Shown here in pieces: positions 39,553-44,141 of a stretch of DNA of 64,000 bases. Both the position numbers and the translations under genes were made by a program. The stretch is taken from contig NZ_JAHRXF010000025.1 in NCBI RefSeq assembly GCF_019104725.1, positions 1 to 64,000 on the forward strand, read 5' to 3'. Origin of the DNA: Streptomyces corallincola (lineage in GTDB: Bacteria; Actinomycetota; Actinomycetes; Streptomycetales; Streptomycetaceae). How positions within the stretch are numbered: position 1 is the stretch's first letter; each line of letters opens with the position of its first letter. The notes beneath the pieces were generated by a model, which was not told the DNA's origin, did not search any database, and saw only the letters and a list, made by a program, of their open reading frames with translations.

Positions 39553-40073
39553 GCCCCGTCGTAGGCATCGTCATGGGGTCGGACTCCGACTGGCCCGTCA
39601 TGGAGGCCGCCGCCAAGGCGCTCGCGGAGTTCGAGATCCCCTACGAGGTGGACGTCGTCTCCGCGCACCGCATGCCCCGCGAGATGATCGCGTACGGCGA
39701 GCACGCGGCCGAGCGGGGCCTGAAGGCGATCGTCGCCGGTGCGGGCGGTGCCGCCCATCTGCCCGGCATGCTCGCCTCCGTCACCCCGCTGCCCGTCATC
39801 GGCGTGCCGGTGCCGCTGAAGCACCTCGACGGCCTGGACTCGCTGCTGTCCATCGTGCAGATGCCCGCCGGGGTGCCCGTCGCCACCGTCTCCGTCGGCG
39901 GCGCCCGCAACGCCGGGCTGCTCGCCGCGCGCATCCTCGCCGTCCACGACGAGGAACTCTCCCAGCGGATGCGGGACTTCCAGCAGGAGCTGAACGACCA
40001 GGCGACCGAGAAGGGCAAGCGGCTGCGGCAGAAGGCCGAGGGTGCCGTCGGCGGCTTCGGCTTCGGGAAGTGA
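39549..40073 (+). CDS. purE: N5-carboxyaminoimidazole ribonucleotide mutase
   Basis: 174 residues. [20 protein letters not shown] and [18 protein letters not shown] contain the conserved Ser and active-site His; [20 protein letters not shown] and [20 protein letters not shown] complete the class I fold. It rearranges N5-CAIR to CAIR, the step after PurK. ATG overlaps the purK stop (ATGA), so the pair is translationally coupled. A basic C-terminal tail of about 20 residues extends beyond the fold. Confidence 0.96.
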
Positions 40074-40080
40074 CGCACTC

Positions 40081-41274
40081 ATGACGCAGACGACCTCCCC
40101 CTCCCTGGACGCGGCCCGCGAACTGCTCCGCGAGTGGCCCGTCGTGGACGGCCACAACGACCTCCCCTGGGCGCTGCGCGAGCGGGTCCGCTACGACCTC
40201 GACAAGCTCGATGTCGCCCACCGCCAGGACGCCGACCTGCACACCGATCTGCCCCGGCTCGCCGAGGGCGGGGTCGGCGCGCAGTTCTGGTCGGTGTACG
40301 TCCCCTCCGACATCCCGGAGCCGGTCGCGGCGACCCTGGAGCAGATCGACTGCGTACGGCAGATGCTCGCCCGTTACCCCGAGCGGCTCGCGCCCGCGCT
40401 GACCGCCGCCGACATGGAGGCCGCCCGCGCCGAGGGCCGCGTCGCCTCCCTGATGGGCGCCGAGGGCGGGCACTCCATCGCCAACTCCCTCGCCACCCTG
40501 CGCGCCCTGCACACGCTCGGGGTGCGCTACATGACGCTCACCCACAACGAGAACGTGGACTGGGCGGACTCCGCGACGGACGCGCCGCGGGTGGGCGGGC
40601 TGTCCGCGTTCGGCCGGGAGGTCGTCCGCGAGATGAACCGGGTCGGCATGCTGGTCGATCTCTCCCACGTCGCCGCCTCCACCATGCGGGACGCGCTGGA
40701 CACCACCACCGCGCCGGTGATCTTCTCCCACTCCTCCGCCCGCGCGGTCTGCGACCACCCGCGCAACATCCCGGACGACGTGCTGGAGCGGCTGCCCGCC
40801 AACGGGGGTGTCGCTATGGTCACCTTCGTGCCGAAGTTCGTCCTCCAGGCCGCCGTGGACTGGACGGCCGCCGCCGACGAGAACCTGCGCGCGCACGGGC
40901 TGCACCACCTCGACACCACCGACGAGGCGATGAGGGTCCACCGGGCCTTCGAGGAGCGCAGCCCGCGCCCCGTCGCCACCGTTTCCACGGTCGCCGACCA
41001 CCTCGACCACATGCGGGAGGTCGCCGGGATCGACCATCTCGGCATCGGCGGCGACTACGACGGCACCGCTTTCACCCCGGCCGGCCTCGACGACGTCTCC
41101 GGCTATCCCCGTCTGGTGGCCGAACTCCTCGATCGCGGGTGGTCCTCCGCCGACCTCGCCAAGCTGACGTGGCGGAACGCGGTGCGGGTTCTGGACGCGG
41201 CGGAGTCGGTCTCCCGCGCGGAGAGTGCTCGGCGGGGGGCGTCCAACGCGACGATCGAGGTCCTGGACGCGTAG
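40081..41274 (+). CDS. M19 membrane-dipeptidase family peptidase
   Basis: 397 residues. All five zinc ligands of the family are present: His25 and Asp27 ([10 protein letters not shown]), Glu128 (LMGAEGGHS), His196 ([10 protein letters not shown]) and His217 ([10 protein letters not shown]), plus the GGDYDGT loop near the end. It should cleave dipeptides, possibly with D-amino acids from wall turnover. ATG 40081 lies 7 bases after the purE stop, so it is likely read from the pur transcript. A degenerate paralogue follows. Confidence 0.92.
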
Positions 41275-41320: not shown

Positions 41321-41430
41321 CGCCGGGTGCGGGTGCGTTGTGGTTTGTCGCGCAGTTCCCCGCGCCCCTTGAAGGTGCGTTGTCGGGTGCGGGTCCGTCG
41401 TGGTTTGTCGCGCAGTTCCCCGCGCCCCTT
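41321..41430 (+). repeat. Two copies of a Streptomyces dispersed intergenic repeat at 60-bp spacing
   Basis: TGGTTTGTCGCGCAGTTCCC and the ten bases after it recur exactly 60 bases apart (41341 and 41401), with related sequence on the left of each. GCGCAGTTCCCCGCGCCCCT is a motif I know as common between Streptomyces genes. A weaker relative occurs near 36267-36290. The 41275-41573 gap holds no gene. Confidence 0.7.
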
Positions 41431-41573
41431 TGAGGGCTGCTGCGCAGCCCTTCCTGGGGCTGTTGGTCCCTCGGACGGCGTACTCGTCAGGTGGGTCGCG
41501 TGGTGGGCGTGTGACGGTGGGGGGACGGCGGCCACTGCGGGGTGGTGTGGCCTTGATGACGCGCGGAGGCTTT

Positions 41574-42668
41574 ATGTCGCACCTCCAGGACGGTGTGCCC
41601 GTGGCGGCCGGTCTTGACGAGTTGCCGGATGATCCGTTTCCCGGCGGGGAGGCGGACGACACGTTGCGGCTGGCGCGGGCGGTGTTGGAGCGGTACCCGG
41701 TGGCGGACGGGCGGTGCGGGCTGCCGGGGGTGTTGGCGCGGTCGGGTCGGTGCGACCTGGAGCTGGGCGGGAGTGCCGTGGACACCGATGTGCCCCGGTT
41801 GCGGGCGGGCCGGGTCGGGGCGCAGTTCTGGGCGCTGGACCTGCCCGAGGGGACCGGCGGGGACCGGGCGCTGGCCGCCACCCTGGAACTGCTCGACCTC
41901 GCCCGGGCCGTCATCGCCGCGCACCCGGAGGGCCTGCGCCCGGCACGGTCGGCGGGGGAGGTCATCGACGCCCGGAACTGCGGCCGGACCGCTGTCGTAC
42001 TCGGTCCCGCCGGGGCCCGCGCCCTCGCGGACTCCCTCCCCGCACTGCGCGCCCTGCACACGCTCGGCCTGCGCGTCCTCACCCTGTCCGGCACCGCCTG
42101 GGCGGGCGGGAAGACCGGGCTGACCCGCTTCGGTGAGGAGGTCGTCCGGGAGATGAACCGTCTCGGTGTCCTCGCGGACGTCTCCGGTGCCCCCGAGTCC
42201 ACCGCGCACCGGGTGCTCGCGCTGTCCCGCACCCCCGTGCTGTGCACCCGCTCGGCCGCGAGCGCCCTGCGCCCGCACCCGGACAACGTCTCCGACGATC
42301 TGCTCGGCGCCCTCGGCGCCGCCGGTGGCCTGTGCATGGTGCCGTTCGCCGCCGAGCAGTGCGGGACGGCCGTGGAGGACGTGGCCGACCATCTCGGGCA
42401 CGTACGGGACGTGGCCGGACCGGAGAGCGTCGGCCTCTCCGGTGCGTACGACACCGGAGCCGCGCACCCCGCCGAGCTGGACAACCCCTCCCGCCACCCC
42501 CACCTCGTCGCGGAACTGCTCCGGCGCGGCTGGAGCGACACCGAGCTGTCCCTGCTGACCTGGGGGAACGTCCAACGCGCCCTGCGCAGCGCGGACTTCA
42601 CCGCCCGTGCCGCCCAGGACCGGGGCGAACCCTCACGGGCCCGGCTGGCCGACCTGGACGGCGGCTGA
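41574..42668 (+). CDS. Degenerate M19 dipeptidase paralogue lacking all zinc ligands
   Basis: 364 residues, alignable along its length to the preceding dipeptidase (shared blocks [39 protein letters not shown]). The zinc positions are all changed: His25 to Arg47 and Asp27 to Gly49 (VADGRCGLPG), Glu128 to Ala146, His196 to Gly205, His217 to Arg226; GGDYDGT reads SGAYDTG. The frame is open and keeps normal codon bias, so it is a maintained non-enzymatic protein rather than a decayed gene. ATG 41574 follows GGAGG by 4 bases; ATG 41556 is an alternative. Confidence 0.88.
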   Translation: MSHLQDGVPVAAGLDELPDDPFPGGEADDTLRLARAVLERYPVADGRCGLPGVLARSGRCDLELGGSAVDTDVPRLRAGRVGAQFWALDLPEGTGGDRALAATLELLDLARAVIAAHPEGLRPARSAGEVIDARNCGRTAVVLGPAGARALADSLPALRALHTLGLRVLTLSGTAWAGGKTGLTRFGEEVVREMNRLGVLADVSGAPESTAHRVLALSRTPVLCTRSAASALRPHPDNVSDDLLGALGAAGGLCMVPFAAEQCGTAVEDVADHLGHVRDVAGPESVGLSGAYDTGAAHPAELDNPSRHPHLVAELLRRGWSDTELSLLTWGNVQRALRSADFTARAAQDRGEPSRARLADLDGG

Positions 42669-42702: not shown

Positions 42703-43092
42703 CTACCCCTCCTCGATCCTGCACAGGCAGAACGGATGCCCCGCCGGGTCGGCGTACACCTGGAAGTCCTTCGTCTCGCGGTCCGTGAGGTCCAGCGGGC
42801 GGGCCCCCAGCGCGAGCACCTGCTCGTGGGCCCGGTCGATGTCCGCCCAGGTGGGCCCGCCGTCGAAGTCCAGGTGGAACTGCTGGGCGCCCTCGGGTCC
42901 GGGCCACTTCGGGGGTTCGTACGCCTCGGAGCGCTGGAAGCAGAGCCGGGGCCCGTCCGGGACGTGGAGGACGACCCAGTCGTCGTCCTGCGCGTCCGGG
43001 GTGCCGCCCGCGAGGGCCGCGTAGAAGGCGGCCAGCGCGGCCGGGTCGGGGCAGTCGAGGACGACGCTGCGGAGGCGGGCGACGGACGTCAT
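42703..43092 (-). CDS. VOC/glyoxalase-superfamily protein (second of pair)
   Basis: 129 residues, one VOC unit: RLRSVVLDCPDPAALAAFYA at the start and VYADPAGHPFCLCRIEE at the end. This is the actinobacterial glyoxalase-like type common next to regulators; substrates are unknown. It follows its paralogue by 44 bases, shares about half its residues and is probably co-transcribed. ATG 43092 is set by homology and by GAGGAG upstream. Confidence 0.88.
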   Translation of the reverse strand: MTSVARLRSVVLDCPDPAALAAFYAALAGGTPDAQDDDWVVLHVPDGPRLCFQRSEAYEPPKWPGPEGAQQFHLDFDGGPTWADIDRAHEQVLALGARPLDLTDRETKDFQVYADPAGHPFCLCRIEEG

Positions 43093-43136: not shown

Positions 43137-43508
43137 TCAGCAGGTGCACAGGCAGAACGGATGCCCCGCCGGGTCGGCGTACACTCGCCAGCCCCGCTCC
43201 GGCGGGCCGGTCTCCAGCAGGCGGGCGCCCAGTTCCAGCACACCCTTCTCCGCCGCGTCGAGCTGGGCGGCGGGGACATTCAGGTCGAGGTGCATCTGCT
43301 GGCCCCCCTCGGCGGCGGGCCAGCGGGGCGGGACGAACCCCGTGGCCCGCTGGAAGGCCAGCTTCCGGCCGTCCGGGAGCGCCAGTTCCACCCACTCCCC
43401 GTCGTCCTCCTCGCTCACCGTGCCGCCCAGCACCCCGGCGTAGAACGCGGCCAGCGCTCGCGGATCGGGACAGTCCAGGGCGACGACGTCCAGCGTGGCG
43501 AGGGCCAT
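43137..43508 (-). CDS. VOC/glyoxalase-superfamily protein (first of pair)
   Basis: 123 residues with the same unit: LDVVALDCPDPRALAAFYAG and YADPAGHPFCLCTC. Metal ligands expected in true glyoxalases are not evident, so a binding or resistance role is possible. ATG 43508 has AGGAGGA upstream. An extended frame to 43559 would run through a perfect palindrome and is rejected. It is divergent from the CGNR regulator, with a repeat cluster between. Confidence 0.88.
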   Translation of the reverse strand: MALATLDVVALDCPDPRALAAFYAGVLGGTVSEEDDGEWVELALPDGRKLAFQRATGFVPPRWPAAEGGQQMHLDLNVPAAQLDAAEKGVLELGARLLETGPPERGWRVYADPAGHPFCLCTC

Positions 43509-43538: not shown

Positions 43539-43626
43539 GTTACCGTAGAACGTGCTCATCAGGTAACGCGTTACCTGATGGTTCTGCCCCTGCGGTAACG
43601 GACACAACCCGATTCGCGGAGGTAAC
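43539..43626. promoter_or_regulatory. Operator cluster: five GGTAAC/GTTACC hexamers with a 24-bp palindrome
   Basis: The hexamer occurs at 43539, 43562, 43570, 43594 and 43621 in alternating orientation. The central pair forms a perfect 24-base palindrome (43557-43580) around GGTAACGCGTTACC. The last hexamer overlaps the TAACTT -10 of the CGNR gene. The cluster fills the 126 bases between the divergent VOC and CGNR genes. Confidence 0.7.
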
Positions 43627-43634
43627 TTGCAGCC

Positions 43635-44141
43635 ATGACTGAGCGAGCGCCCGCACCGGGAGGGCTGGTCCTGGTCGAGGCCCTGGTGAACACCCTCGAC
43701 CTGGAGACCGGCGCCGACGCGCTGGACACCGGGCGTGGCCGGGCGGCGCTGGGCATCGGCGCCGCCGGGGTGGAGGACGCCCGTGAGCTGCGCGAAGCGC
43801 TGCGCGTGGTCCTGCTCGCGCACGCCGGGTACCCGCCGCACGCCGAGGTGACCCCGCTCGGCGAACTCCTCGCCGCCGCGCCGCTGCTCGTCACCGTGGA
43901 CCCCGGCGACGGCTCGGCCGCCCTCACCGCCGCCGACACCGGTGCGCTGCGCTCCCGTGTCGCGGTGGCGGTGGCGGAGGCGCTGGTCGCGGGCACCTGG
44001 ACCCGGCTGAAGGCGTGCGAGTCCGTCACCTGCCACTGGGCGTACTACGACCGCAGCCCGGCCGGGCGGGGCCGCTGGTGCTCGATGGGGGTGTGCGGGG
44101 CGCGCGCCAAGATGCGGCGCTACCGGGCCAAGCGGGTCTGA
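43635..44141 (+). CDS. CGNR zinc-finger (ABATE-domain) transcriptional regulator
   Basis: 168 residues. The N-terminal ABATE-type domain covers about residues 10-115; the C-terminal zinc finger holds Cys128, Cys133, Cys149 and Cys154 in KACESVTCHWAYYDRSPAGR and RWCSMGVCGARAKMRRYR. Here CGNR reads CGAR. ATG 43635 follows TAACTT by 6 bases with no useful ribosome site, so the message may be leaderless. Divergence from the VOC pair and the GGTAAC cluster makes it their likely regulator and its own. Confidence 0.9.
   Translation: MTERAPAPGGLVLVEALVNTLDLETGADALDTGRGRAALGIGAAGVEDARELREALRVVLLAHAGYPPHAEVTPLGELLAAAPLLVTVDPGDGSAALTAADTGALRSRVAVAVAEALVAGTWTRLKACESVTCHWAYYDRSPAGRGRWCSMGVCGARAKMRRYRAKRV

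Follow-up and report, generated by a model that had tools for sequence, protein, structure and literature searches.

The CGNR/VOC locus and its regulator

The window, i.e., the whole 64,000-nucleotide stretch of Streptomyces corallincola DNA that was analyzed, carries a CGNR/ABATE regulator gene and, divergent from it, two VOC genes, the first of which starts 30 nt away from the nearer of two wide dyads (Table 1). Pfam scanning of the regulator gave a PF11706 (zf-CGNR) match of 61.7 bits (cut-off 24) and a PF07336 (ABATE) match that is marginal by sequence, 25 bits for a cut-off of 24.4. Together with the Glyoxalase_6 matches of the two VOC genes, these matches bear out the gene labels of the original prediction. 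Many relatives likewise have a second VOC match beyond the first. Two adjoining dipeptidase-like ORFs also lie in the window; read by eye, the first has DGHNDLPW where the second has DGRCGLPG, which makes the latter a possible non-catalytic paralogue.

Table 1. Coordinates of the features in the window
Feature	Position	Strand	Remarks
Dipeptidase-like ORF 1	40042-41274		
Dipeptidase-like ORF 2	41400-42668		adjoins ORF 1
VOC gene 2, Glyoxalase_6	42703-43092	-	PF18029, 89.7 bits; presumed same operon as gene 1
VOC gene 1, Glyoxalase_6	43137-43508	-	PF18029, 94.5 bits; divergent, presumed target
GGTAAC hexamers	43539-43544, 43562-43567, 43570-43575, 43594-43599, 43621-43626	-, +, -, +, +	
Dyad 1 (VOC side), GTTACC-N17-GGTAAC	43539-43567		half-sites 43539-43544, 43562-43567
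Perfect 24-bp palindrome	43557-43580		inner half-sites of both dyads plus 2-bp junction
Dyad 2 (CGNR side), GTTACC-N18-GGTAAC	43570-43599		half-sites 43570-43575, 43594-43599
Shine-Dalgarno of CGNR gene, GGAGGTAAC	43618-43626	+	GGAGG at 43618-43622; includes fifth GGTAAC
CGNR/ABATE regulator gene	43635-44141	+	168 aa; PF11706 and PF07336; presumed dyad binder
zf-CGNR treble-clef zinc finger	44004-44135	+	Pfam match, 64.2 bits
Codons of CGARAKM (CGNR-motif stretch)	44094-44114	+	third residue covaries with half-site base 4

The regulator has a four-cysteine finger, with Cys128, 133, 149 and 154 invariant among 46 sequences, and its motif is CGAR. A structural model built with the 46-sequence alignment had a pLDDT of 88.1, with block means of 60-67 at the C-terminus, where the end of the finger is poorly resolved. 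The only fold match below E 0.001 found by Foldseek was PDB 3h0n (E 5.1e-06, probability 1.00, TM 0.54/0.50, 22% identity); a phmmer sequence search of the PDB with the window protein returned nothing at E <= 1. The ABATE assignment is based on the marginal PF07336 score and on the fold match to 3h0n, which spans 178 alignment columns. The protein of 3h0n, Jann_2411 from Jannaschia, shares the domain order ABATE + zf-CGNR (PF07336 + PF11706) with the window protein and differs from it in the motif, CQNR as opposed to CGAR. The accessible part of the 3h0n paper describes Jann_2411 as a likely dimer whose treble-clef finger likely binds DNA and whose ABATE domain may bind a ligand, and gives no DNA site for it. 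Two-fold symmetric sites fit such a dimer, and by analogy a DNA-binding dimer is predicted for the window protein.

CGNR/ABATE proteins are common: the window protein has a match at E <= 0.001 in 199/199 Streptomyces genomes (many of these matches being paralogues), and a PF11706 match is present in 273/394 genomes of the class. Our PMC searches for them listed one structure paper and passing mentions. We found no operator or DNA target of a CGNR/ABATE protein in PMC, where most subscription papers are missing, in agreement with the earlier statement that no defined binding site is known.

The wide dyad in promoters of the window clade

The count of five GGTAAC hexamers in 88 bases and the perfect 24-bp palindrome, both reported in the original prediction, were confirmed. 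The whole window has 13 GGTAAC copies, compared to a shuffle mean of 7.61; a Poisson estimate for at least five copies per 88 bases is P ~1e-12, for a stretch that was picked for its density. With at most one mismatch, GGTAACNNGTTACC occurs at a single place in the 6.39-Mb genome, the window locus.

When upstream regions of Streptomyces homologues were first read by eye, two rigid distances were apparent, N17 on the VOC side and N18 on the CGNR side. We defined the window clade as proteins that are 45% or more identical to the window protein (139 loci with 130 distinct upstream regions) and counted dyads with one mismatch allowed per hexamer and a spacing of N16-19. A dyad is present in 129/130 of these promoters and a tandem pair in 119/130. 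Within the tandem promoters, the first dyad has N17 in 109 cases and N18 in 10, the second has N18 in 115 and N17 in 4, and the junction between the dyads is 1 bp in 92, 2 bp in 5, 3 bp in 10, 4 bp in 7, 6 bp in 1 and 7 bp in 4. Column counts (119 and 124 rows) showed that nearly all half-site columns are at least 90% conserved and that parts of the N18 spacer are well conserved too. Relatives with a short leader have the CGNR ATG 9 bases past the end of the right half-site of dyad 2. The finding that had been named as refuting the original prediction, hexamers not conserved next to homologues, was thus not encountered.

These alignments indicate that the conserved element is the wide dyad GTTACC-N17/18-GGTAAC. 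Under the original parsing, the hexamer would be the unit, with the 24-bp palindrome as the principal dimer site and the remaining copies as additional sites of a dense array; the palindrome is indeed perfect in the window, and additional hexamers close to dyad 1 are frequent among relatives. We nevertheless rejected the array and the palindrome as the unit, because junctions of 1 to 7 bp occur while N17 and N18 hardly change. The perfect palindrome of the window results from the 2-bp junction of its two dyads, a length shared by just 5/119 tandem promoters. Furthermore, other CGNR families (e.g., L154-L156) have a lone N17 dyad without a close palindrome. Accordingly, the hexamer-array reading is highly improbable: what stands of the proposed GGTAAC motif is a CGNR-linked operator region, and what does not is the choice of unit.

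Two observations on individual relatives should be added. In many of them (e.g., L032, L034 and L045), the right half-site of dyad 1 is preceded, at 7 bp, by an extra GGTAAC, and a hexamer pair at N10 is found in 36/130 window-clade promoters. The sole region of the clade without a dyad, L104, has an OrfB_IS605 transposase gene directly upstream (L104 221-1420; the first 200 aa of the ORF gave nothing in the Pfam scan, and a 400-aa stretch matched OrfB_IS605), and a VOC match is absent from this locus as well. L104 can be viewed as a natural test case in which a CGNR gene is cut off from its operator.

The fifth hexamer belongs to neither dyad. It overlaps GGAGG, which is located 12 nt before the CGNR ATG, and in long-leader relatives GAGGT is mostly kept at this place while the next bases, as read by eye, vary (TACC, TAGC, TGGC, TAAC). 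It was therefore dropped as an operator candidate and is best read as part of a putative ribosome-binding site. The original prediction also had one hexamer overlapping the -10 of the regulator itself; this overlap is unproven, because a simple scan found no sigma-70-like promoter.

Dyads beyond the window clade and a probable residue-to-base code

CGNR genes were gathered across the class and the phylum by Pfam family, with plasmids added. Three of the 337 loci had proteins that were too short, and L002, L086, L087 and L267-L296 were left out of the family counts, because they were duplicates or had been retrieved with the pattern itself. Outside the window clade, 195 sequences were reduced to 94 greedy representatives at 50% identity (single-linkage clustering had merged families); the upstream region of one was too short, leaving 93. 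In these 93 promoters, WACC-Ns-GGTW was found at N17 in 16 cases and at N18 in 11, compared to ~0.9 expected for each from shuffles, and at N9 in 8, N19 in 4 and N16 in 3 (~1 each in shuffles). Control regions gave one N17 and one N18 case among 94 coding sequences, and one N17 and no N18 case among 92 far-upstream regions. The controls were not flat at other spacings, with N16 in 4/94 coding regions (0.2 expected) and N9 in 3/92 far-upstream regions (0.4 expected); therefore, weight was put on N17 and N18. The everted WACC/GGTW arrangement showed no peak at N17/N18 in the 93 promoters. Direct WACC..WACC pairs peaked at N17 in the coding control (13/94), presumably from conserved codons. It should be noted that a WACC/GGTW dyad with N9 or N16-19 spacing was limited to 37/93 of these representatives.

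In a motif-free test, which counted exact 6-mer inverted repeats containing no more than three G/C, the highest values were at N16, N17 and N18, with 11, 14 and 11 cases versus 2.1-2.6; some other spacings had smaller excesses. Without the G/C limit, the profile of the first 46 clusters had too much noise. A fresh set was drawn from 111 new loci, found by a larger family search plus three that were protein-guided. Of these, 85 were dropped for being too short or for sharing 60% or more identity with an earlier locus or with another new one. The remaining 26 promoters had N17 in 4 cases (0.3 expected), N18 in 2 (0.1), N16 in 2 (0.2) and N9 in 3 (0.2). Outside the phylum, a plasmid of Pantoea anthophila (Gammaproteobacteria) carries GTAACC-N19-GGTTAC between alpha/beta hydrolase and ABATE genes, with a second dyad, GTAACT-N19-GGTTAC, seen by eye just upstream. 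Four other proteobacterial plasmid CGNR genes (three representatives, with the fourth folded into one of their clusters) have no WACC/GGTW dyad.

The genes divergent from dyad-bearing CGNR genes differ in kind. Ten neighbors, hand-picked as real-looking genes from the 20 longest divergent ORFs of dyad-bearing representatives, comprised three MFS, two EamA, and one each of abhydrolase, Glyoxalase_6, acyl-CoA dehydrogenase N-terminal, mycothiol-S-transferase and arginase. Hence the dyad was rejected as a VOC-linked feature; the dyads follow the CGNR gene and not the VOC genes. The earlier suggestion that the paired VOC proteins denote a resistance or dicarbonyl unit is not specially favored, because VOC is just one of several neighbor kinds.

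The half-site changes together with the finger: base 4 of the half-site goes with the third CGNR-motif residue, such that CGNR is paired with GGTT and CG[A/S/T]R with GGTA, in 55/57 cases. The test set was merged at 60% identity into 148 representatives, 61 of which have a dyad; four of these have mixed half-sites and were kept outside the Fisher table. There were 13 non-Asn/GGTA, 2 non-Asn/GGTT (L353 and L425), no Asn/GGTA and 42 Asn/GGTT cases (Fisher 4e-11, kinship ignored); at 50% identity, the numbers were 9, 2, 0 and 34, respectively (6e-08, kinship likewise ignored). Six of the 13 GGTA rows are kin of the window clade. The fresh set contributed more Asn-GGTT cases and one exception (L425), with zero new GGTA. 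A recognition-helix lysine three places past the motif Asn goes with ACC/GGT dyads, which are present in 35/61 representatives with it versus 2/32 without it (p 6e-07, kinship ignored). The residue changes at least six times and the half-site eight times on a quick tree computed with the recognition helix left out. This tree is weakly supported (5/54 inner branches starred), and only two independent contrasts lie on starred branches; 200 random pairings on it gave a half-site change in the same direction 1.7 times on average and never in the opposite one. These results suggest a probable residue-to-base code, to which kinship may contribute.

Other half-sites were found among the 56 representatives without a WACC/GGTW dyad, namely GTAA-N22-TTAC in 8 (0.01 expected) and ACACC-N17-GGTGT in 5 (0.00 expected); both preserve the half-site distance. 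At least one of five dyad classes is present in 83/141 representatives (60% identity) versus 8.7 in shuffles, the classes having been partly chosen on the same data. The window genome has four further CGNR genes, three with the GTAA/TTAC class and one with no dyad class. Several CGNR genes (L157, L158, L168, L169, L187, L184 and L211) have AACC-N9-GGTT upstream, placed over a -10-like TATAGT/TATACT box, and in several N9 loci the start codon directly follows the dyad, giving a leaderless look. The idea that N9 proteins carry a different N-terminal domain was abandoned, as the four that were scanned score as ABATE + zf-CGNR. The N9 dyad of L202 obeys the code despite its spacing.

We searched for GTTACCN{17,18}GGTAAC on the + strand of 101 Streptomyces genomes, with the reversed pattern as a control, and found 84 sites in 55/101 genomes versus 15 for the control. 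Among the 75 of 84 sites listed, 56, in 38 genomes, are within 92 bp of a CGNR match, and 19 are not beside one. GTTACC-N18-GGTAAC sites in G038, G039, G046, G054, G071 and G074 have a common inner GCCGGTAATYTAC and no adjoining CGNR match; judging from their shared interior, they are another conserved element that meets the pattern. In four Streptomyces genomes (G007, G011, G063 and G067), a similar N17 site recurs at a distance of ~137-141 kb from the CGNR gene and is possibly a second target or a site of another regulator.

The 19 sites away from CGNR matches would fit a different transcription factor that binds the dyads and has the CGNR gene as only one of its targets. Against this, an exact-pattern search of the S. 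corallincola genome found no dyad besides the two of the window (one further N17 site has one mismatch), dyads of the same geometry precede CGNR genes with unlike neighbors, and the half-sites change along with residues of the CGNR finger. We consider a different factor very unlikely.

Proposed regulation by the CGNR/ABATE protein

We regard it as quite probable that the region is an operator pair for the adjoining CGNR/ABATE protein, which would bind each dyad as a dimer and repress both promoters until relieved by a ligand. One treble-clef finger would contact each inverted GGTAAC half-site, and the ABATE dimer would hold the half-sites at their distance of 17 or 18 bp (23-24 bp from center to center). 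With both dyads filled, the VOC operon (dyad 1) and the regulator itself (dyad 2) would be repressed, and derepression would follow when the ABATE domain senses a small molecule. We infer physical binding, the stoichiometry of one dimer per dyad, repression and the ligand from the sequence comparisons. The original prediction that a CGNR-linked operator region controls the CGNR gene together with the VOC pair divergent from it is probably correct.

A competing proposal concerns the sign of regulation. The CGNR protein could bind the dyads and activate the VOC genes, e.g., upon ligand binding; no promoter was recognized in the window, and divergent regulator-target layouts are common for activators too, such as those of the LysR type. 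On the other hand, the dyad ends near the CGNR start codon in several relatives or spans a -10-like TATAGT, as in the N9 relatives L157 and L211, which have this box within the dyad, immediately ahead of the start codon. The half-site ending 9 bases before the CGNR start and the TATAGT inside N9 dyads are positions that suit repression of the CGNR gene; thus, activation is an unlikely reading, and repression is preferred.

The proposed repression resembles that exerted by local repressors of the TetR type, whose genes are divergent from enzyme or efflux genes, with dyads in the shared promoter and a ligand domain in the protein. The layout of the window is similar, its ligand domain being presumed. 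The window regulator is outside the TetR family, however: it has zf-CGNR and ABATE domains, a Pfam scan at E <= 0.001 found no helix-turn-helix domain in it, and its half-sites are far apart (N17/18).

Extending the proposal, we slightly favor the view that the whole CGNR/ABATE family uses one operator grammar with a readable residue code and half-sites at a family-typical distance. Under this grammar, the treble-clef finger would read the half-sites, and the ABATE dimer would set the spacing to N17/18, or to N9 in some subfamilies. Asn as the third motif residue would specify GGTT, and Ala, Ser or Thr (usually then ..KM) would specify GGTA, while recognition helices without the lysine would read GTAAnn or GTCAnn half-sites.

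The region thus appears to be a real, strongly conserved operator region that was misparsed at first, and it offers a testable grammar for the CGNR family. The dyad layout beside many unrelated members provides a first testable DNA target for this family, and an operator with rigid spacing and a residue-to-base rule makes DNA binding by its members directly testable. The divergent VOC enzymes, hydrolase and efflux-type transporters point to small-molecule sensing, and ligands could be screened with reporters. If the code is true, the target of an uncharacterized CGNR regulator would be predictable from its sequence.
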